DNA of 46,990 nt, taken from assembly GCF_003851125.1 (NCBI RefSeq), contig NZ_BGOW01000011.1, positions 1 to 46,990 on the forward strand. The letters are read 5' to 3'. The position numbers were made by a program, and so were the translations under genes. How positions within the stretch are numbered: position 1 is the stretch's first letter; each line of letters begins with the position of its first letter. This DNA comes from Sulfuriferula multivorans. GTDB taxonomy: Bacteria; Pseudomonadota; Gammaproteobacteria; Burkholderiales; Sulfuriferulaceae. Positions 28,199 to 40,598 of the stretch are shown one piece after another. The notes under the pieces were generated by a model. That model made no database searches, was not told the origin of the DNA, and saw only the letters and a list, made by a program, of their open reading frames with translations.

Positions 28199-28720
28199 AT
28201 GCCGTTATTCAAACATCCGATCATCGACCATATCCCCAGCCTGCGCCGCTACGCCCGTGCGCTGACCGGAGGCCGTCCGGACGACGCCGATGACCTGGTA
28301 CAGGACACGCTGGAACGCGCCTATGCCAAGTGGCACTTGTGGCGAATCGGCTCGGATCTGCGCCCCTGGCTGTTTTCCATCATGCATAACCTGTTCGTGA
28401 GCCAGGTGACGCAGCTTAAAAACCGCACATCGCATGTCACGCTCGACGATATGCCGGAGATCGCCACGCGCGCCACCCAGTCGGAGCGGCTGGAAGGGCT
28501 GGACATTGCGGCTGCCGTGACCCGGCTCTCTCCTGAATTGCGCGAAGTATTGTTGCTGGTGGCACTCGAAGATTTCAGCTATGCCCAGACCGCCAAGGCA
28601 CTCGATATCCCGATTGGCACAGTGATGTCGCGTCTGGCGCGTGCGCGGCAACGGCTAATGGAATTCATGGATGGCTCAATATCTTATGAGCACAAAGTTG
28701 GATTAAAGGTAGTGAAATGA
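28199..28720 (+). CDS. ECF-family RNA polymerase sigma factor
   Basis: A 173-residue group IV sigma factor. Region 2 covers about residues 8-75 with DDADDLVQDTLERAYAKWH and LRPWLFSIMHNLFV; region 4 covers about 105-160 with SPELREVLLLVALEDFSYAQ and the helix-turn-helix LDIPIGTVMSRLARARQRL. No region 3 is present, as expected. It overlaps the anti-sigma gene by four bases (ATGA at 28717-28720). The signal it responds to is unknown; its likely targets include itself and the divergent SnoaL-like gene. Confidence 0.95.
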   Translation: MPLFKHPIIDHIPSLRRYARALTGGRPDDADDLVQDTLERAYAKWHLWRIGSDLRPWLFSIMHNLFVSQVTQLKNRTSHVTLDDMPEIATRATQSERLEGLDIAAAVTRLSPELREVLLLVALEDFSYAQTAKALDIPIGTVMSRLARARQRLMEFMDGSISYEHKVGLKVVK

Positions 28721-29517
28721 AGGCACATGTACAGCCTGTTACGCTGGATGATCTGATGGCTTATGTCGATGGGCAGCTGGATGCTCAGCGGTGCCCGCAA
28801 GTCGAGGCACTCATCGCATCCGATCCGCTTGTCGCTGAACGTGTCGCCGGGATGCGCGCGCAGCGTCAGGCGTTGCATGCCCATTACGACCCGGTATTGA
28901 CCGAGCCCATACCGGTACGACTCCTCGCCCAGCCCCAGACCGGTTCCGCGTGGACCAGGGGAGCGAGCATTGCCGCATCGGCATTGATCGGACTGGCGCT
29001 AGGCAGTGCCGGTACCTGGCAATACCTGGGCCACGCTTCAGGTGGCTCAACAAATATGGCATTAAACGGAAGTCAGATGGATTTGCCGCGCTTTGTGCAT
29101 CAGGCGGCGGTGGCCCATATTGCCTTTGTGCCGGATGTGCGCCGCCCGGTTGAAATCTATTCGGCCCAGGAACAGCAACTGGTGACCTGGTTGTCCAAGC
29201 GGCTGGGACGCCAACTCAAGGTCCCCGATCTGGCCAGCACTGGATTCAAGCTGGTAGGGGGTCGCCTGCTACCCGGCGAAGTCAATAAGCCGGCGGCGCA
29301 ATTCATGTATGAAAACCCGGCGGGTCAGCGTATTACCTTGTATCTGCGCAACATGGCGCAACCCACGCCGGAAACCGCGTTCCGTTTTGCCGAGCAGGAC
29401 GGCATCGCCACGTTTTATTGGGTTGATCTGGATTGGGGCTATGCGTTGTCAGGAGATTTGCCGCGCACCACTTTATTGAAAGTGGCTAACTCGGTGTATC
29501 AACAACTGGGTGGTTGA
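28717..29517 (+). CDS. Membrane-anchored anti-sigma factor
   Basis: A 266-residue protein with an N-terminal cytoplasmic anti-sigma region (about 8-60; VTLDDLMAYVDGQLDAQRCP resembles the zinc-finger-less ASD of RseA/FecR-type factors), a single membrane segment (about 87-105, SIAASALIGLALGSAGTW), and a periplasmic domain (about 110-266). Start and stop overlap with the sigma gene indicates translational coupling. The periplasmic part includes LVTWLSKRLGRQLKVPDLAS and is presumably the sensor. No HxxxCxxC zinc motif is seen. Confidence 0.9.
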   Translation: MKAHVQPVTLDDLMAYVDGQLDAQRCPQVEALIASDPLVAERVAGMRAQRQALHAHYDPVLTEPIPVRLLAQPQTGSAWTRGASIAASALIGLALGSAGTWQYLGHASGGSTNMALNGSQMDLPRFVHQAAVAHIAFVPDVRRPVEIYSAQEQQLVTWLSKRLGRQLKVPDLASTGFKLVGGRLLPGEVNKPAAQFMYENPAGQRITLYLRNMAQPTPETAFRFAEQDGIATFYWVDLDWGYALSGDLPRTTLLKVANSVYQQLGG

Positions 29518-31524: not shown

Positions 31525-32403
31525 TCATTGCGTATGGATAGGCTCTGTGCTGGACAGGACGTCCGTGCAATGCCGTGGCAGTGTATAGCCATTGGCGGGG
31601 TCGTCTATCGCCGCAATGTTGATCACTGGCGCAATTGATTTGACCGAGCCGAACACCGTAGCGAAAGAAGCATCGGCTGCGTCCCGCCCGGTACCGAGCC
31701 TGACCAGACCCATCGGTGGTGAAATGCCGCTGGGATCAAAGGAATACCAGCGCTTACTGAGAAAAACTTCGACGAAGGCATGAAAATCGGTCGGCCCTAA
31801 TTTTGGGTCTGCGCCATAATCGATTCCCGTGACGAAGCGTGCAGGGATATTCATCGCCCGGCACAACGCTATCATCAGATGGGCGAAGTCACGGCATATC
31901 CCCGCCTGCTCGATAAGGGTATCGGTTGCCGAGGTGTTGCTGTTCGAGCTTCCTGACAAAAATGACGTGCGCCGGCGCACCCAATCCTGTATCGCCTGCA
32001 CCCGCGGATAGCCGGGTTGGAAATGCGCGAATTCCCAGGTTGCCAGCTTCCCCAGCCGGTCAGACTGGCAGTAGCGACTCGGGTAAATATACGGCAGTAC
32101 CTCCGACGGCAGTTGCGAAATTGGTACTTCCGCAAGGTTTTCGGGCGACTCGAAATAATGGGCGATATCAACGGTCGCCTCGTAGCGTACGGTCAACGGG
32201 CCAGGGGCGGTTTGCAGTCGCATATAACGCGTGCCATAGGTCAGATCGGTATAGATCACCGGTGTTACAGGCTGGCTGAGATAAAGCTGCTCGTTGGCTA
32301 CTGATTGATGGGCCGTTTGCGCAGCATGAATGTTAAAGATGAAATCGCTCGTGGATCCGGCGATTTCGTAGCCAAGTTCTATGTCGAATTTTAACCTGAT
32401 CAT
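31525..32403 (-). CDS. Transglutaminase-like cysteine peptidase family protein (last gene of the Anbu operon)
   Basis: A 292-residue protein with a transglutaminase-type N-terminal beta domain (about 1-100) and a transglutaminase/protease core (about 130-235). The catalytic triad is complete: Cys170 in AGICRDFAHL, His208 in TDFHAFVEVF, Asp223 in SFDPSGI. No signal peptide is seen, so it should act in the cytoplasm, as Anbu does. Proteins of this group accompany Anbu in many bacteria and could be proteases, amidases or crosslinking enzymes. It starts 37 bases after the dioxygenase-like gene. Confidence 0.92.
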   Translation of the reverse strand: MIRLKFDIELGYEIAGSTSDFIFNIHAAQTAHQSVANEQLYLSQPVTPVIYTDLTYGTRYMRLQTAPGPLTVRYEATVDIAHYFESPENLAEVPISQLPSEVLPYIYPSRYCQSDRLGKLATWEFAHFQPGYPRVQAIQDWVRRRTSFLSGSSNSNTSATDTLIEQAGICRDFAHLMIALCRAMNIPARFVTGIDYGADPKLGPTDFHAFVEVFLSKRWYSFDPSGISPPMGLVRLGTGRDAADASFATVFGSVKSIAPVINIAAIDDPANGYTLPRHCTDVLSSTEPIHTQ

Positions 32404-32440: not shown

Positions 32441-33661
32441 TCAACTCGCCTCCCGCACGCCTTCTTCCAGCCCCGCCGCAAACGTTAATAACGCGACATT
32501 GTCGCGTGCGAAGAAGCCTTGAAAGTCGCCAAAACGTTGTACGTATTCGATAATCAGTGCGGAAAAATCCGACGCGGAAGAGAAGATTTGCTTGAGACCT
32601 TCCTCGCGTGAGCCGACGGTGTCGAGCAGAAAGCCTTTGCCCTGGGCAGTGATTGCTTCCACGACAAAATCAATATGCTCCTTGCCGTCATGCTGGCCAT
32701 CTTTTACCGCAAGCGCCATGTGGTGCAGGCGTGGGCCATAGTTGCGCACGAAAGTTTCGGTGGGGCTGGGCAGTTTATCCAGGTGGTTGACGCAGTAGGG
32801 GTGATTGTTGGCGGTGAACACCTTGGCCGGGCTTGCGGATTCGGGTGCGCCGCGCACGTTTTTGGTGACGTTGGTGGAGGAGTTCTGATCCCCGATATCG
32901 TAGCTGCCCCAGTAGTAGTAGCTTGACAGCGCCAGGTATTCAAGCAAAGCGGCCTCGCGGTTCTGACTGTACACGCGGGTGGCAAGATGGTCGATAGGCA
33001 GAATGAGGTCTTTGATGCCGATCCGTTCCTGCATCTCCTTGCCGCGTTCGTAGGCCGCCTGCGCGCTGCCAAGGATGACGCATTCACCATGCTGATAGAC
33101 GCGGATACCGTCCGCAGCTCGCTCCATATAGCCCACCATGTTCTGGGTATAGGGTGAGGGCTTGGACAGGCTCACATTGAGCGGCAAATCCAGTTCGGCG
33201 AGCTGGCCGATGGGAAAGAAGCGAAACTCACGCTCCTGTTGCTGTGCAACGACTTCGTGACGGTTGGACGTGAGCAGGATTTCGCCCAGATAACGGCTGT
33301 GCGGGCGCCGTGCACCCACCGGGTACAAGTCATTCAGGCTGCGGAAAATATCGCTGTAGCCCGGATCTTTTACCTCGCGCAACAGGATGTCTGGCGCATT
33401 CATATCGATGCGCAACACGTGTGTGAGATGTTTTGGGCTGTCCAGCGTGACCAGATAATGATAGGGCGTCATCAGCGCCAGCTCGGCGATGTATTCAAGC
33501 GCATTGCCCGGTTCTACGGTCATCATCAGCGCTTCGATGCCGCCGATCATTTCGGTCAGGCCACTGCGGTCGCGCGCTTCCAATAGACGTGGGAGGTATG
33601 CTTCAAAGAACGCGGAGTTTTGCTTGTCGCCAAAGCGCGGGCGGTGGCTTGAGTTGAGCAT
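32441..33661 (-). CDS. Protein with a 4-hydroxyphenylpyruvate dioxygenase-like (VOC fold) C-terminal half, in the Anbu operon
   Basis: A 406-residue protein. The N-terminal half (1-215) is not recognised. The C-terminal half follows the catalytic module of HPPD-type non-heme iron dioxygenases: PIDHLATRV with His225, RLHHMALAV with His314, and LIIEYVQRFG with Glu372, corresponding to the two-His-one-Glu iron site; EEGLKQIFS precedes the Glu as in HPPD. The stretch between the second His and the Glu is about 58 residues against roughly 80 in typical HPPD, so a segment near the active site is missing and the substrate is probably different. It is enclosed by Anbu-cluster genes (14 bases after the large transglutaminase gene, 37 before the small one). 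No tyrosine-degradation genes are near. Confidence 0.8.
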   Translation of the reverse strand: MLNSSHRPRFGDKQNSAFFEAYLPRLLEARDRSGLTEMIGGIEALMMTVEPGNALEYIAELALMTPYHYLVTLDSPKHLTHVLRIDMNAPDILLREVKDPGYSDIFRSLNDLYPVGARRPHSRYLGEILLTSNRHEVVAQQQEREFRFFPIGQLAELDLPLNVSLSKPSPYTQNMVGYMERAADGIRVYQHGECVILGSAQAAYERGKEMQERIGIKDLILPIDHLATRVYSQNREAALLEYLALSSYYYWGSYDIGDQNSSTNVTKNVRGAPESASPAKVFTANNHPYCVNHLDKLPSPTETFVRNYGPRLHHMALAVKDGQHDGKEHIDFVVEAITAQGKGFLLDTVGSREEGLKQIFSSASDFSALIIEYVQRFGDFQGFFARDNVALLTFAAGLEEGVREAS

Positions 33662-33675
33662 ATCTGTTCCTGCGG

Positions 33676-36600
33676 CTACCTGGGTTGCCAGCGCAAATCC
33701 AGGGTCATGGGAAAGCGCGGATTGAGTGCTTCGGGTTTGATTACCATTGCCCCGGTGCTGTGGCCGTGATCCCAGAAACGCGCTCGGCGGCGCGCCTCAG
33801 CCTCATTGGCATTGACCGGAAAAGTGTCGTAGTTGCGCCCGCCGGGGTGGCTGACATGGTAGGTGCAACCGCCGATGGCACGGCCATTCCAGCTGTCCAC
33901 CACATCGAATACCAAGGGCGCATGAATACCAATGGCGGGGTGCAATGCAGACGGCGGTGCCCACGCCTTGAAGCGTACTGCAGCAACGAATTCACCGGGC
34001 ACGCCAGTCGGATGCAGCGGTAGCGGACGGCCATTGCACGCTACCTGATGGCGGCTGTCGGTCATGCCGCTCACCTTGACCTGCATCCGTTCTGCCGATG
34101 AGTCCACATAGCGTGCCATGCCGCCCGCGGCCATTTCTTCGCCCAGCACATGCCACGGCTCGATGGCCTGGCGCAGCTCCAGCTGTATACCCTCATAGGC
34201 CACGCTGCCGTAGCGTGGAAAGCGGAACTCGATGAACGGCGCAAACCAGGCGTCTTCGAATGCATAACCTGCTGCGCGCAGGTCGCGGCTGATGTCGCGC
34301 ATGTCCTGCTCGATGAAATACGGCAGCATGAAGCGGTCATGCAGCGCAGTATCCCAGTACACCAGCTTGCCTTGATAAGGTGTTTTCCAGAACCGGGCTA
34401 CAAGCGCCCGCAGCAATAGCGATTGCACCAGACTCATACGGTAATGGGGCGGCATCTCAAACGCGCGTAATTCCACCAGCCCCAGCCGCCCGGTAACAGA
34501 ATCCGGCGCGTAAAGCTTGTCGATGCAGAATTCCGCGCGGTGCGTGTTGCCGGTCAGGTCAATCAATAAATTGCGCAACAGCCTGTCCACCAGCCAGGGC
34601 TGGTCGCTTTCTTTACCGGGAGTGAGCCTGGCATCCATTTGCTGGAACGCGATTTCCAGTTCGTACAGGTTGTCATCACGCGCTTCGTCCACTCGTGGCG
34701 CCTGGCTGGTGGGGCCGATGAACTGTCCGGAAAACAGGTAGGACATGGCCGGATGTTGCTGCCAGTAAGTAATCAGGCTTTTCAGCAGGTCCGGCCGACG
34801 CAGAAATGGGCTGTCTGCCGCTGTAGCGCCTCCCAGCGTGACGTGGTTGCCGCCGCCGGTACCGGTGTGGCGACCATCAAGCATGAATTTTTCGCTGCCC
34901 AGCCGGGTCTGGCGTGCATCCTCATACAGTGTCTGGGTACGTTCCATCAGCGTTGGCCAATCGGCAGCGGGGTGGATGTTGACCTCGATGACGCCCGGGT
35001 CGGGTGTGACTGACAGCGACAACAAACGCGGGTCGCGCGGAGGCGCGTAACCTTCCAGGCGAATGGGCTGGTTAAGTGCTTCAGCGCAGTGTTCCAACGC
35101 AGCGACCAAGGCTAGCCAGGATTCAATCGTGGTGGTGGGCGGCATGAAAACGTGCAACAGACCGTCGCGTACTTGCAGCGCCAGCGCCGTGTGGATGACT
35201 TCGCGCGCATTCGGGGATTCGTCGATGGCTGTGGCGGCGGTTGTCTTGGGAGCGGGTGGAGATTCCGGCAGCGGGACGTGCTCGGAAAATGGGTCGGGAG
35301 CCAACTCGACTTCAAAATCTTCTGGCGCCAGCCACGGCAGGCTATCTAGCGGCAGCCGGTAACCCAGCGCGGAATCGCCTGCCACCAGATACAGTCGATC
35401 CTGACGTAACGGCCAGCGGCTGGAACGCCATTGCGGCGCTACGGCGGTACCGGCTTTAAGCGGCAGCACGTAGCCGACAACCTCTGCCAGTCCGGCGCGT
35501 AGCTGTTTAGCGAGACGGTTACGCGCATCGGGTTGGGTGAGGTCAGCCGTGTGTGGGTCGAGGTTGGCAGGCAAGCGGCTTTCCATGTCCAGCGCCTGCC
35601 ACGGGTCTTCATACGCCGGGATAATATAGCCTGGGTTGAGCCCAAGCCGCTGGGCAAGGTGGGTGGCGAAGTTTTTGAGTGCATCGAGGCTGATAGTTTT
35701 GCTGGCCTCGGCGACAAGTGCCGGCTTGTGCCAGAGTGGGGTGCCATCCGTGCGCCAATAGACCGTCAGAGCCCAGCGTGGCAGCGGTTCGCCCGGATAC
35801 CATTTGCCTTGGCCGAAGTGCAGCACGCTGCCGGGAGCAAAGCGTGTTTGCAGGCGGCGCATCAGGGCGTTGGCAAGTGTCCATTTTTCTTCGCCCAGCG
35901 CGGCGATGTTCCATTCCGCGCCGTCCATGTTGTCGATCGAGACAAAGGTTGGCTCGCCCCCCTGGGTGAGGCGCACATCGCCTTTTTTCAATTCGGCGTC
36001 AATCTGCAGCCCGAGCGCGTTTGCCGCCTGCCACTGTGCGTCGGTGTAGGGTTTGGTCACGCGCGGGTCTTCGTGGATACGGGTGACCGTCATGCTCACG
36101 TCGAGCTGCGATTCGCAGATGCCGGTGAGGCCGTTGATGGGCGCTGCGGAGGCAGGTTGTGCGGTGGCGGCCAGTGGTATATGGCCTTCTCCGGCGAGCA
36201 GGCCCGAGGTGGCGTCCAGTCCGACCCAGCCGGCGCCAGGGATATAGGCTTCGCACCAGGCGTGCAGGTCGGTGAAATCGGCGCTGGGTCCGGCCGGGCC
36301 GTCGAGCGGTTTTTCATCGGCGGCAAGCTGAATCAGATAACCCGATACAAAGCGTGCGGCAATGCCCAGATGGCGTAACACTTGTACCAGCAGCCAGGCG
36401 CTGTCGCGACATGAGCCGGAACCTTTGGAGAGTGTTTCCTCGCAGGTTTGTACGCCTGCCTCCATGCGGATGAGATAGGAAACGCTGCGCTGTATGCGTT
36501 GATTCGCGTGGACCAGAAAATTGGTAATGCCCATCTCGGCAGGCAGGGCACGACGGAGTTCGTCTAGCCATTGCGCCAGAGCTGGGCCCGCAGCGTCAGT

Positions 36601-36957
36601 CTGCAGAAACGGCGTCAGTTCTGATTTAAGCTCGGCCGGGTACTGAAACGGGTAATGCTCTGCCCATGGCTCGACAAAAAAATCGAACGGATTGATTACC
36701 GTCATGTCCGCCACCAGGTCCACCGTCACTTCGAGTTCGCGTGTTGGCTCAGGGAAGGTGAGGCGGGCAACGAAATTACCGTAGGCGTCTTGCTGCCAGT
36801 GAATAAAGTGTTTGGCTGGCTGCACCTTAAGCGAATATGCCGAAATGGGAGTACGGTTATGCGCAGCAGGTTTAAGCCGGATTTCATGAGGAAACACCAT
36901 GACCGGGCGATCGAAGCGGTAATGGCTGTGATGATGCAGAGCAACGCGTATGGTCAT
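33676..36957 (-). CDS. Large transglutaminase / DUF2126 protein of the Anbu operon
   Basis: A 1093-residue cytoplasmic protein. Residues 1-90 form a transglutaminase N-terminal domain (VALHHHSHYRFDRPVMVFPH). The transglutaminase core lies at about 140-260 with an intact triad: Cys183 in GSGSCRDSAW, His232 in DLHAWCEAYIP, Asp248 in GLDATSG. The remaining 700 or so residues are the DUF2126 region, beginning near VRLTQGGEPTFVSIDNMDG, of unknown function. I start at ATG 36957 (MTIRVALHHH), one base after the Anbu stop; the frame stays open 65 codons further but into the Anbu gene, with no homology. It follows Anbu and precedes the dioxygenase-like gene by 14 bases. Confidence 0.94.
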   Translation of the reverse strand: MTIRVALHHHSHYRFDRPVMVFPHEIRLKPAAHNRTPISAYSLKVQPAKHFIHWQQDAYGNFVARLTFPEPTRELEVTVDLVADMTVINPFDFFVEPWAEHYPFQYPAELKSELTPFLQTDAAGPALAQWLDELRRALPAEMGITNFLVHANQRIQRSVSYLIRMEAGVQTCEETLSKGSGSCRDSAWLLVQVLRHLGIAARFVSGYLIQLAADEKPLDGPAGPSADFTDLHAWCEAYIPGAGWVGLDATSGLLAGEGHIPLAATAQPASAAPINGLTGICESQLDVSMTVTRIHEDPRVTKPYTDAQWQAANALGLQIDAELKKGDVRLTQGGEPTFVSIDNMDGAEWNIAALGEEKWTLANALMRRLQTRFAPGSVLHFGQGKWYPGEPLPRWALTVYWRTDGTPLWHKPALVAEASKTISLDALKNFATHLAQRLGLNPGYIIPAYEDPWQALDMESRLPANLDPHTADLTQPDARNRLAKQLRAGLAEVVGYVLPLKAGTAVAPQWRSSRWPLRQDRLYLVAGDSALGYRLPLDSLPWLAPEDFEVELAPDPFSEHVPLPESPPAPKTTAATAIDESPNAREVIHTALALQVRDGLLHVFMPPTTTIESWLALVAALEHCAEALNQPIRLEGYAPPRDPRLLSLSVTPDPGVIEVNIHPAADWPTLMERTQTLYEDARQTRLGSEKFMLDGRHTGTGGGNHVTLGGATAADSPFLRRPDLLKSLITYWQQHPAMSYLFSGQFIGPTSQAPRVDEARDDNLYELEIAFQQMDARLTPGKESDQPWLVDRLLRNLLIDLTGNTHRAEFCIDKLYAPDSVTGRLGLVELRAFEMPPHYRMSLVQSLLLRALVARFWKTPYQGKLVYWDTALHDRFMLPYFIEQDMRDISRDLRAAGYAFEDAWFAPFIEFRFPRYGSVAYEGIQLELRQAIEPWHVLGEEMAAGGMARYVDSSAERMQVKVSGMTDSRHQVACNGRPLPLHPTGVPGEFVAAVRFKAWAPPSALHPAIGIHAPLVFDVVDSWNGRAIGGCTYHVSHPGGRNYDTFPVNANEAEARRRARFWDHGHSTGAMVIKPEALNPRFPMTLDLRWQPR

Positions 36958-36958
36958 A

Positions 36959-37729
36959 TCAGGGAGGCGGTAGGGAGAAGCTGTCGCGGGTGTCTGGCGC
37001 GATTTCCCAATCGGGGTCGGGGAGCGAAGCGAATACGCCGCGCAGGCCTTCGCTCCAGCGCTGGCTGATCTGGGAAAAATAGCTGTCGCTATCGGTGATG
37101 TGATGTACGCGATCCAGATTAAAGCTGTTGCGCGCATAGCATGCCAGGTCAATCGGCAGTCCTACCGAGATATTGCTGCGCATGGTCGAGTCAAACGATA
37201 CCAGTACGCACTTGATGGCATCCATCAGGGGCGTTTCGGCATGAATGACGCGATCAATGATGGGTTTGCCGTATTTGGTTTCGCCGATCTGGAAGTAAGG
37301 GGTTTCGTCGGTGGCCTCGATAAAATTGCCCTCGTCGTACATCAGGAACAAGCGTGGCGGTTCGCCTCTTACTTGACCACCGATGATGAAATTGGCACCA
37401 GCCGCAACATTCCCTTCGAGCAGGAAGGGACCATCGCGTTCGCGTACCTCTCGCAGGCAGTCTCCCAGTAGCATGGCTACGTCAAACATGGATTGGGCAT
37501 TCCACAAATTCTGCAATTCATTTCGCCGCCCCCGTTGCTCGAGCAAATTGATCGCGCTCTGGGTGATGGACAAATTACCCGAGCTGAGGATGACGATGAC
37601 GCAGTCGCCGTTGTTGACGAAACTGCGCATTTTCTTGAATCTGGCGATTTGATCCACCCCCGCGTTGGTGCGGGAATCCGAAGCAAAAACCAGCCCGGCG
37701 TTGAGCTTGAGTGCGACACAGTAAGTCAT
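36959..37729 (-). CDS. Anbu: proteasome-related peptidase
   Basis: A 256-residue member of the Ntn-hydrolase/proteasome beta superfamily, group Anbu ('ancestral beta subunit'). The N-terminus MTYCVALKLNAGLVFASDSR places Thr2 as the nucleophile after Met removal. Asp18 and Lys32/Lys33 (in ARFKKMRSF) are the expected partners. Anbu assembles into large rings or open helical rings; its substrates are not established. The gene lies between the alpha-E gene (30 bases upstream) and the DUF2126 gene (1 base downstream). No HslUV or unfoldase gene is adjacent, so any peptide fed to it must come from elsewhere or from the products of the neighbouring ligase. Confidence 0.94.
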   Translation of the reverse strand: MTYCVALKLNAGLVFASDSRTNAGVDQIARFKKMRSFVNNGDCVIVILSSGNLSITQSAINLLEQRGRRNELQNLWNAQSMFDVAMLLGDCLREVRERDGPFLLEGNVAAGANFIIGGQVRGEPPRLFLMYDEGNFIEATDETPYFQIGETKYGKPIIDRVIHAETPLMDAIKCVLVSFDSTMRSNISVGLPIDLACYARNSFNLDRVHHITDSDSYFSQISQRWSEGLRGVFASLPDPDWEIAPDTRDSFSLPPP

Positions 37730-38755: not shown

Positions 38756-40195
38756 TTAATCCTCCAATATCCAGGTATCCTTGGTGCCACCGCCCTGGGA
38801 TGAGTTGACGACCAGCGATCCCTCGGTCAATGCCACACGGGTGAGCCCTCCCGGCACCAGACGGATTTCCTTGCCGGACAGTACGAATGGGCGCAAATCC
38901 ACGTGGCGTGGGGCGATACCGGCCTCTACCAGGGTAGGGCAGGTGGATAGCGCCAAAGTTGGTTGGGCGATAAAGCTGGCAGGGCTGGCCAGAATCCGTT
39001 CGCGGTATGCAACAATTTCATCGGGAGTGCTGGTCGGACCGACCAGCATGCCGTAGCCTCCCGAGCCTTGTACTTCTTTCACTACGAGCTCGGGCAAGTG
39101 GGCGAGCACGTATTTGAGATCTTCCGGTTCGCTCAGACGCCAGGTGGGTACGTTGGACAGAATGGGTTTTTCTCCCAGATAAAATTCGATCATGGCCGGC
39201 ACATACAGGTAAGTTGACTTGTCATCGGCCACGCCAGTGCCGACAGCGTTGGCCAGTACTACCCCTCCACCGCGGTAAGCACTCATCAGACCGGGAACGC
39301 CCAGCATCGAATCGGGGCGGAAAACCAGCGGATCGAGAAAATCATCATCCACACGTCGATAAATGACGTGTATTTGCTGCGGACCCTCGGTGGTATGCAT
39401 GTAGACCTTGCCTGCATGGACAAACAAATCCTTGCCTTCCACCAGTTCCACCCCCATTTGACTGGCGAGGAAAGCGTGTTCGAAGTAGGCGCTGTTGTTG
39501 GCTCCAGGTGTCATCACAACAATTACTGGTTGATCCACATTGGGGGGAGCCGCCTCGATCAGGGTGTCGAGCAGCATTTGCGGATAGTGGTCGACCGGGG
39601 CGACGGTATGGCTGGCAAACAGATCGGGAAACAGCCGCATCATGGTATTGCGGTTTTCCAGCATGTATGACACGCCAGAAGGCGTGCGCAGATTGTCTTC
39701 CAGTACATAAAAGTCGTTTTCTGCCACACGCACCAGATCAATGCCGGCAATGTGTGCATAGACCTGATTAGGCAAATCGATACCTTGCATTTCCGGCTGA
39801 TACTGGCTGTTTTTCAGTATCTGATGGGCGGGAATCAAACCTGCTTTGATGATTTCCTGGCCGTGATAAATATCGTGTAAAAAAGCGTTAAGTGCGCGCA
39901 CCCGCTGCTTCAGGCCGCGCGCCAGGAGACCCCATTCGCTGGCACTGAATATGCGTGGAATAACGTCGAACGGAATCAGGCGTTCAGCGCCTGCGTCCTG
40001 CCCATAAACGGCAAAGGTAATTCCCAGTCGACGAAACAGCACCTCGGCTTCGCGTTGTTTCAGAGATAGGGCTTCCAGAGGCATGGAAAATAGCTGACCA
40101 GTTACATCCCTGTATTGATCGCGCACTTCGCCTTCCGGGGAGAGCATTTCGTTGAATGCGGGCGGTTTAGACAATATGGTTGTAGATTCATGCAT
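38756..40195 (-). CDS. Circularly permuted type 2 ATP-grasp protein (predicted amide ligase), first gene of the Anbu operon
   Basis: A 479-residue protein with the ATP-grasp fold in circularly permuted order. Family blocks include YVLEDNLRTPSGVSYMLENR (a metal/ATP-binding region), VVMTPGANNSAYFEHAFLA, YRRVDDDFLDPL, LANAVGTGVADDKSTYLYVP and VKEVQGSGGYGMLVGP near the C-terminus. Comparative genomics has proposed that such enzymes join amino acids or peptides by ATP-dependent amide formation; the substrate is unknown. The start at 40195 gives MHESTTILSKPPAF. It opens the six-gene operon; the 403 bases upstream contain no gene. Confidence 0.93.
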   Translation of the reverse strand: MHESTTILSKPPAFNEMLSPEGEVRDQYRDVTGQLFSMPLEALSLKQREAEVLFRRLGITFAVYGQDAGAERLIPFDVIPRIFSASEWGLLARGLKQRVRALNAFLHDIYHGQEIIKAGLIPAHQILKNSQYQPEMQGIDLPNQVYAHIAGIDLVRVAENDFYVLEDNLRTPSGVSYMLENRNTMMRLFPDLFASHTVAPVDHYPQMLLDTLIEAAPPNVDQPVIVVMTPGANNSAYFEHAFLASQMGVELVEGKDLFVHAGKVYMHTTEGPQQIHVIYRRVDDDFLDPLVFRPDSMLGVPGLMSAYRGGGVVLANAVGTGVADDKSTYLYVPAMIEFYLGEKPILSNVPTWRLSEPEDLKYVLAHLPELVVKEVQGSGGYGMLVGPTSTPDEIVAYRERILASPASFIAQPTLALSTCPTLVEAGIAPRHVDLRPFVLSGKEIRLVPGGLTRVALTEGSLVVNSSQGGGTKDTWILED

Positions 40196-40598
40196 AGTCG
40201 TACTCTGCTCAGGCCGTGGATGCTCACGGCATTTCTATAAATCACATTGTTCTCTCTTGGTAACGCAAGCAATATGCCAGCTCAAGAATTGTTTTAATTT
40301 ATTGTTTTTTAATGTTTTTGTAAGTTATTTATGTGATGAAGAGGATAGGGCGCTCTCTTCAGGTGCAGGTACGGCGGGGCAAGCACAGGTCCGGTGCGCT
40401 GTCTAAACTTCGTTATTGAACGAGCATCGGTGCTGCGTAGGTGGGACAGTTATTACTCACAGGAGATTATTCTGCGTGGTGAAGCCGGGACGGAGAGAGG
40501 CCGATCGGGGAAATTGGCGCTATGGGAGTATTAACCAGCAGAGAGGAGATTGTTTGGCATTGGACATTTTTTATCGGCCAATCGTCGATCGGTGAAAC
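40196..40598. other. Intergenic region upstream of the Anbu operon
   Basis: 403 bases without a credible gene. It contains an A/T-rich stretch at about 40278-40335 that is a likely place for the minus-strand operon promoter, and a small hairpin GCCGTG (40213-40218) with CACGGC (40225-40230) in the presumed leader. I could not identify -35/-10 elements with confidence, nor a known operator. Confidence 0.4.

Follow-up and report, generated by a model that had tools for sequence, protein, structure and literature searches.

A predicted HPPD-fold protein encoded in an Anbu operon of Sulfuriferula multivorans is a candidate iron-dependent oxygenase

Introduction

Two reports describe the Anbu operon as encoding an ATP-grasp protein, an Alpha-E protein, a transglutaminase and Anbu, and state that no peptidase activity of Anbu was found (PMC6376114, PMC5666114). 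According to one of them, neither a substrate of Anbu nor specific binding to its operon partners was found, and the ATP-grasp protein of the operon released phosphate from ATP (PMC6376114). In nitrogen-limited P. putida, Anbu is reported to be upregulated and to be unchanged under several other conditions (PMC5666114), and a transglutaminase-like gene and its neighbours, possibly belonging to another operon, are also reported to be upregulated under nitrogen limitation in this bacterium (PMC3325844). In B. cenocepacia, loss of ntrC is reported to lower expression of DUF404/DUF407, of DUF403 and of two transglutaminase genes, and the NtrC regulon includes a DUF404/DUF403/transglutaminase cluster (PMC5491218).

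The subject of this study is a protein, here termed X406, that is encoded in an operon of this kind and whose predicted structure resembles 4-hydroxyphenylpyruvate dioxygenase (HPPD) and hydroxymandelate synthase. Hydroxymandelate synthase shares its substrate with HPPD and belongs to secondary metabolism. At one motif X406 also resembles HglS (DUF1338, PF07063), a 2-oxoadipate oxygenase in which His70 is presumably an iron ligand. In HglS, the distal carboxylate of 2-oxoadipate is described as salt-bridged to Arg74, and the R74A substitution as abolishing activity (PMC7286885).

Results

The window, by which we mean the whole stretch of 46,990 nucleotides of S. multivorans DNA that was analysed, carries on its minus strand a run of six genes in the order ATP-grasp, Alpha-E, Anbu, transglutaminase-DUF2126, X406 and transglutaminase. 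Pfam matches identify the circularly permuted ATP-grasp protein (CP_ATPgrasp_2, 38756..40195), the Alpha-E protein (PF04168, 37760..38752), the transglutaminase-DUF2126 fusion (33676..36957, also drawn from the list of open reading frames) and the second transglutaminase-like protein (31525..32403). The gene at 36959..37729 encodes a proteasome-like Ntn hydrolase. All five of its PDB matches at an E-value of 0.001 (5loy, 5nyw, 5lox, 5nyj and 5nyf) have E-values of 1.2e-73 or better and are named Anbu or peptidase, and by these matches its identity as Anbu is secure. The transglutaminase-DUF2126 reading frame extends to 37152 by way of a TTG codon, and the ATG at 36957 is the likelier start. 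Like the described Anbu operon, the window holds genes for ATP-grasp, Alpha-E, transglutaminase and Anbu, together with a putative sigma-54-type promoter; the difference lies in X406, since the published descriptions examined name no oxygenase (PMC6376114, PMC5666114).

X406 is a protein of 406 amino acids encoded at 32441..33661 on the minus strand. The reading frame described in the earlier note is confirmed. An AGGAA motif lies ahead of its ATG, and X406 is under purifying selection, with a dN of 0.029 and a dS of 0.41 in the comparison with one relative (locus L013); dN was far below dS for the relatives compared. As the note had stated, 14 bases separate X406 from the transglutaminase-DUF2126 gene upstream, whose stop is at 33676, and 37 bases separate it from the transglutaminase gene downstream, which starts at 32403. 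X406 has a GC content of 0.568 and the operon one of 0.574. A search after the last operon gene gave no terminator-like site. The window also encodes, at 28199-29517, a sigma factor of ECF type with Sigma70 regions 2 and 4, overlapped by a 266-amino-acid reading frame that has no Pfam match and that may, as a guess, encode an anti-sigma factor; solute-binding and SnoaL-like genes on the opposite strand adjoin this pair.

Sequence searches did not place X406 in a described family. No Pfam model matched above its cut-off (YecM, at E 0.088, is at chance level), no NCBIfam model matched, the cut-off of TIGR01263 (HPPD) was not exceeded, a PDB sequence search gave only chance-level matches with X406 alone and none with a 53-row profile, and plasmid records gave no match at E 1e-5. 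Judged by sequence, X406 belongs to a family of bacterial proteins that no Pfam or NCBIfam model covers. A scan across 84,980 species genomes yielded 84 relatives, the best 80 of which by similarity were kept as the locus set; these are 62-94% identical to X406 in their best segment and mostly near full length, some being cut by contig ends. According to record titles, the hosts of these best 80 of 84 are beta-, gamma- or zetaproteobacteria or unplaced proteobacteria, and they are often sulfur or iron oxidisers, methanotrophs or methylotrophs.

With the source genome counted, profile searches found X406 in 23 of 274 genomes of the class and 7 of 398 genomes of the phylum, and a single-protein search found it in 10 of 18 genomes of the window's genus, the other 8 giving no match. 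The family is compact, because matches in the class and phylum searches at E 0.001 were either very strong or else fragments or split copies. All 23 X406 genomes of the class sample are counted below, including three with only copies cut by contig ends (G065, G258 and G281), one in which X406 lies in two pieces (G173) and one with a broken copy (G223). A match in two pieces was seen in four genomes (L012/L004 in G002, L010/L011 in G005, L112/L116 in G173 and L113/L118 in G223); the G223 pieces contain an internal stop, and sequencing error and decay are indistinguishable in such split copies. In a distant clade, which includes L046, L049, L055, L057, L062, L066 and L079 along with similar loci, identity to the corresponding protein of the window is 62-67% for X406, about 50% for the neighbouring ATP-grasp, about 40-51% for Anbu and about 33% for Alpha-E. 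By these identities, the accessory enzyme of this clade is better conserved than the core.

We used structure prediction to compare X406 with proteins of known fold. The AlphaFold model, built from 53 rows, has a pLDDT of 79.5 and a pTM of 0.85. The 50 matches listed by Foldseek against the PDB are all HPPD or hydroxymandelate synthase, with a best E-value of 5.8e-14, alignments of 391 to 441 columns and 11-16% identity. The highest TM-score by target among the matches listed, 0.71, belongs to a hydroxymandelate synthase (2r5v), although this enzyme has no sequence match to X406. A second model, made for a relative that is 61% identical (pLDDT 71.6, pTM 0.75), again listed HPPD and hydroxymandelate synthase first, at E 1.1e-9, and left the C-terminus unimproved. 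The region of E372 is of low confidence in both models, with block means of 56-68 in the first and 26-40 in the second; the latter also falls below 50 at residues 225-228, which include H225, and over much of the C-terminus. In these predicted models, X406 agrees with the two-domain VOC fold of HPPD. The N-terminal half had been called unrecognised; this must be corrected, as the X406 model matches HPPD along its whole length, even though the sequence of the N-terminal half is unlike that of HPPD.

The predicted iron ligands, which occur in the same His-His-Glu order as in HPPD, are H225 (codon at 32987..32989, motif IDHLATRVY, aligned with DHLTHNV of HPPD), H314 (codon at 32720..32722, motif RLHHMAL, QHIA in HPPD) and E372 (codon at 32546..32548, motif IIEYVQRFGD, FFEIIQRKGN in HPPD), all encoded on the minus strand. 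All 53 aligned rows carry these three residues together with R229 and H313; we quote this set because the larger 83-row set is redundant, comprising 77 distinct proteins. When X406 was aligned by profile with 22 HPPDs (from 30 loci, 8 of which were left out because no frame met the motif filter), H225, H314 and E372 fell on the HPPD ligands with a P value of 0.0019, at an HHalign probability of only 14%; the same alignment pairs QIF with QIF and EYVQRFGDFQGFF with FFEIIQRKGNEGFG. Control profiles gave P values of 0.11 (reversed HPPD), 0.087 (Anbu) and 0.31-0.35 (HGLS), and as a yardstick HPPD and HGLS, two families of one mechanistic class, gave 0.0072 against each other. A local profile alignment with 21 HPPD sequences covered the C-terminal motif only (P 0.0088). 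Near the C-terminus, the QIF and EYVQRFG-GF motifs of X406 follow the QIF and E-x-[IV]-Q-R-x-G motifs of HPPD. An HPPD HMM scored every one of the 83 X406 rows (median 4.3 bits) and reported 46 of 83 reversed copies (median -2.3 bits); its best segments for the X406 of the window are short, one lies on the HPPD N-domain, and the scan alone says little.

The predicted model, the conservation and this weak profile alignment together support a fold like that of HPPD and a similar set of iron ligands. The spacing of the ligands differs from that of HPPD. From the second His to the Glu there are 58 residues, as against 77-84 (mostly 80) in 21 HPPDs, and the interval is thus shorter by about 22, close to what had been noted; from the first His to the second there are 89, as against 78-79, which is about 11 more. 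Seven residues of the N-domain, between positions 78 and 127 and away from the predicted iron, are invariant as well (H78, H81, R84, R95, E96, R123 and E127), and it is possible that they form a second site or a partner surface.

The surroundings of the predicted iron site set X406 apart from HPPD. D-H-x3-R is present in 83 of 83 X406 rows (77 distinct), as is R-x-H-H at the second ligand; of the 22 HPPDs, 20 have DHLTHN at the first ligand and two gave a different D-H match, and all 22 have QHIA at the second. X406 thus has R229 (ligand +4, codon at 32975..32977 on the minus strand) for Asn and H313 for Gln. H-x3-R also occurs in 11 of 11 HGLS/DUF1338 proteins, at residues 70 and 74 in one of them (L155), and R229 takes the place of HglS Arg74. 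On account of this position, R229 points to an acidic substrate, one that would carry a second acidic group. Because the comparison with the HGLS profile finds nothing, the likeness is one of analogy at a single residue and not of homology; the PF07063 model matches neither X406 nor anything in the source genome, HglS/DUF1338 is absent from the 50 structural matches listed, and HglS differs further in belonging to lysine catabolism. An aromatic substrate had been suggested earlier, and nothing that we found speaks for it.

In the class sample, X406 is tied to the Alpha-E/Anbu system. All 23 genomes with X406 have Alpha-E, as do 56 of the 251 that lack X406 (274 genomes, Fisher 2.8e-14). Counted by family, it is present in 19 of 19 X406 families (3e-10), with 61 Alpha-E families in a total of 172 that was taken from labels. 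The corresponding figures are 22 of 23 and 47 of 251 for Anbu, and 19 of 23 and 31 of 251 for DUF2126. Among the 79 genomes that have Alpha-E, the association of X406 with Anbu (P 0.09) and with DUF2126 (P 0.04) is only mild, and 29 of the 30 X406 genomes examined have Anbu. ATP-grasp and Alpha-E are absent from the fetched stretch in 22 of 80 loci, and Alpha-E is present in 17 of the 17 genomes checked; five such loci (L027, L029, L036, L050 and L087) lie outside this check, several of the 17 end at contig edges, L016 and L024 begin inside a DUF2126 gene, and the genome of L033 also holds L034, which has the operon. These counts make Alpha-E the constant partner of X406, Anbu nearly so, and DUF2126 less. 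Among the genomes sampled, X406 is found only where Alpha-E is, and co-occurrence among related genomes does not amount to proof of a shared pathway.

Linkage was counted in the locus set. Of 34 loci whose flanks are complete, 30 hold both ATP-grasp and Alpha-E within 10 kb and the other 4 hold neither. A same-strand operon-type neighbour lies within 300 nt in 59 of 80 X406 loci, although both counts lean to close relatives, the loci being the best by similarity. In the class sample, contig coordinates place an Alpha-E match within 10 kb of 12 of the 23 X406 copies and none within that distance of the other 11, some of which are at contig ends. The proposed tie to the Anbu system is supported: orthologues do not occur mainly outside Anbu clusters beside tyrosine genes, and the 11 copies that lie away are in genomes that carry Alpha-E.

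A shared gene context for the copies outside the operon was considered and rejected, as the 20 neighbouring reading frames in 11 loci disagree. Neighbours of such copies include a GH15-type kinase subunit, glucokinase, QRPTase, HisA, an aminotransferase and, at L085:1-2314, a TIR/NB-ARC/TPR protein of the type found in defence systems. The aminotransferase, of class I/II, is divergent from X406 at L017:5138-6223; enzymes of this type make 2-oxo acids, yet it may fit many pathways. Recurring non-operon clusters of reading frames (at least 6 loci) comprise redoxins, U32 peptidase, short-chain dehydrogenase and one cluster in 16 loci. This last was discarded as a neighbour family since it seems to be antisense, two of its members lying opposite Alpha-E or X406 without a Pfam match.

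A role in tyrosine breakdown, which the earlier note had thought unlikely, finds no favour in the genomic record. TIGR01263 has no match in the source genome, and in the class sample HPPD exceeds the cut-off in 1 of the 23 X406 genomes and in 39 of the 251 others (P 0.22). Canonical HPPD is thus not enriched among X406 genomes, and the sole X406 genome of the sample that has it (G223) is the one whose X406 is broken. Of the 20 neighbouring reading frames scanned in the 11 loci away from the operon, none matched a homogentisate or tyrosine-breakdown family.

A sigma-54-like site with 2 mismatches, TGGCATATTGCTTGCG, lies upstream of the ATP-grasp gene at 40264..40279 on the minus strand. Alone it is not significant, there being 38 matches with at most 2 mismatches in the window and 36.6 expected. 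It is supported, however, because related loci have sites upstream of the ATP-grasp gene: 45 of 54 loci carry one with at most 2 mismatches, as against 1.04 expected from shuffling of single bases, and since the loci are related these are not 45 independent events. Where X406 is not directly downstream of an operon gene (n = 45), it has a sigma-54-like site of its own in 10 cases (1.2 expected) and none in 35, and where it is downstream of one (n = 58) it has its own in 4 (1.1 expected); these two sets contain duplicates between collections, and one gene is present as two pieces (L112 and L116).

Discussion

We judge, at a probability of roughly 0.57, that X406 is an Fe(II) 2-oxo-acid oxygenase that acts on a substrate probably bearing a second acidic group and that serves the Anbu/Alpha-E system. 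It would belong to the Fe(II)-dependent two-domain VOC-fold oxygenases, in the mechanistic class of HPPD, hydroxymandelate synthase and HglS, with the iron held by H225, H314 and E372. From the chemistry of that class, we infer that the 2-oxo-acid group of the substrate itself would bind the iron and that O2 would decarboxylate the substrate, with hydroxylation of the same molecule. R229 would probably grip the second acidic group, and a dicarboxylic 2-oxo acid, either free or at the end of a peptide-like amide, would be a more likely substrate than an aromatic one. X406 would thus serve a system of ATP-grasp, Alpha-E, Anbu, transglutaminase and DUF2126 that is nitrogen-controlled in other bacteria. 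The direction of the pathway is speculative. The 2-oxo acid might come from the removal of nitrogen from an amino acid or amide, or the product might be fed to the ATP-grasp ligase; X406 might accordingly dispose of the carbon skeleton after nitrogen removal or make a building block for the ligase.

The VOC superfamily is mechanistically diverse, and X406 could be an HPPD-fold metalloenzyme of the Anbu/Alpha-E system that performs other chemistry of that superfamily, such as ring cleavage, isomerisation or hydrolysis, and uses no 2-oxo acid. The altered pocket, in which His313 replaces the Gln before the second ligand of HPPD and Arg replaces the Asn at ligand +4, would suit such an enzyme. 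We think it unlikely, however, given that the best fold matches among those listed are all intramolecular 2-oxo-acid oxygenases and that the C-terminal motifs follow HPPD. Loss of catalysis, leaving a binding or scaffold protein, might account for the heavy conservation of the N-domain away from the predicted iron, but it would leave the invariance of the three ligands and their surrounding motifs unaccounted for and strikes us as highly improbable. That X406 is a true HPPD of tyrosine catabolism is scarcely credible: the predicted fold and iron ligands would fit, but TIGR01263 does not match, X406 does not occur where HPPD does, no tyrosine-breakdown family was seen among the 20 neighbours scanned, and the first-ligand motif and the Gln position differ.

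A different kind of objection concerns the partnership and not the chemistry, namely that X406 is an oxygenase with a house-keeping or stand-alone function whose gene just happens to sit in or close to the operon in certain lineages. Several of the observations lean this way, among them the 11 of 23 class-sample copies with no Alpha-E within 10 kb, the lack of a sigma-54-like site in 35 of the 45 copies that do not directly follow an operon gene, and the distant clade, where the conservation of X406 (62-67%) is far above that of ATP-grasp (about 50%) and Alpha-E (about 33%). Against them stands the finding of X406 only in genomes with Alpha-E, in all 23 of the class sample and all 17 of those checked, and on balance we regard a stand-alone role as quite unlikely.

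The Anbu/Alpha-E system may be a metabolic pathway and not a protein-tagging or proteasome system, one that assembles or takes apart an amide-linked small molecule under nitrogen limitation and in which X406 oxidises the acidic 2-oxo-acid part. We advance this tentatively, as a possibility that could well prove wrong. The same holds for the suggestion that goes with it, that X406 is a new oxygenase family joining an HPPD-like body to an HglS-like carboxylate-binding Arg. An amide-ligase system was reportedly proposed by Iyer et al. 2009. Our literature search, which did not extend to the gene tables of Iyer et al. 2009, found no paper tying the Anbu system to an oxygenase. X406 leans to a metabolite hypothesis over protein tagging, hinting that the proteasome-like Anbu system handles a small molecule that gets oxidised. 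An oxygenase of this kind could expose the chemistry of the whole system through a cheap oxygen-uptake assay, and if the metabolic-pathway reading is true, the substrate of X406 would be a first chemical handle on the role of Anbu.

Two loci each carry two Anbu genes, at L037:11509-14018 and at L023:2434-6581.
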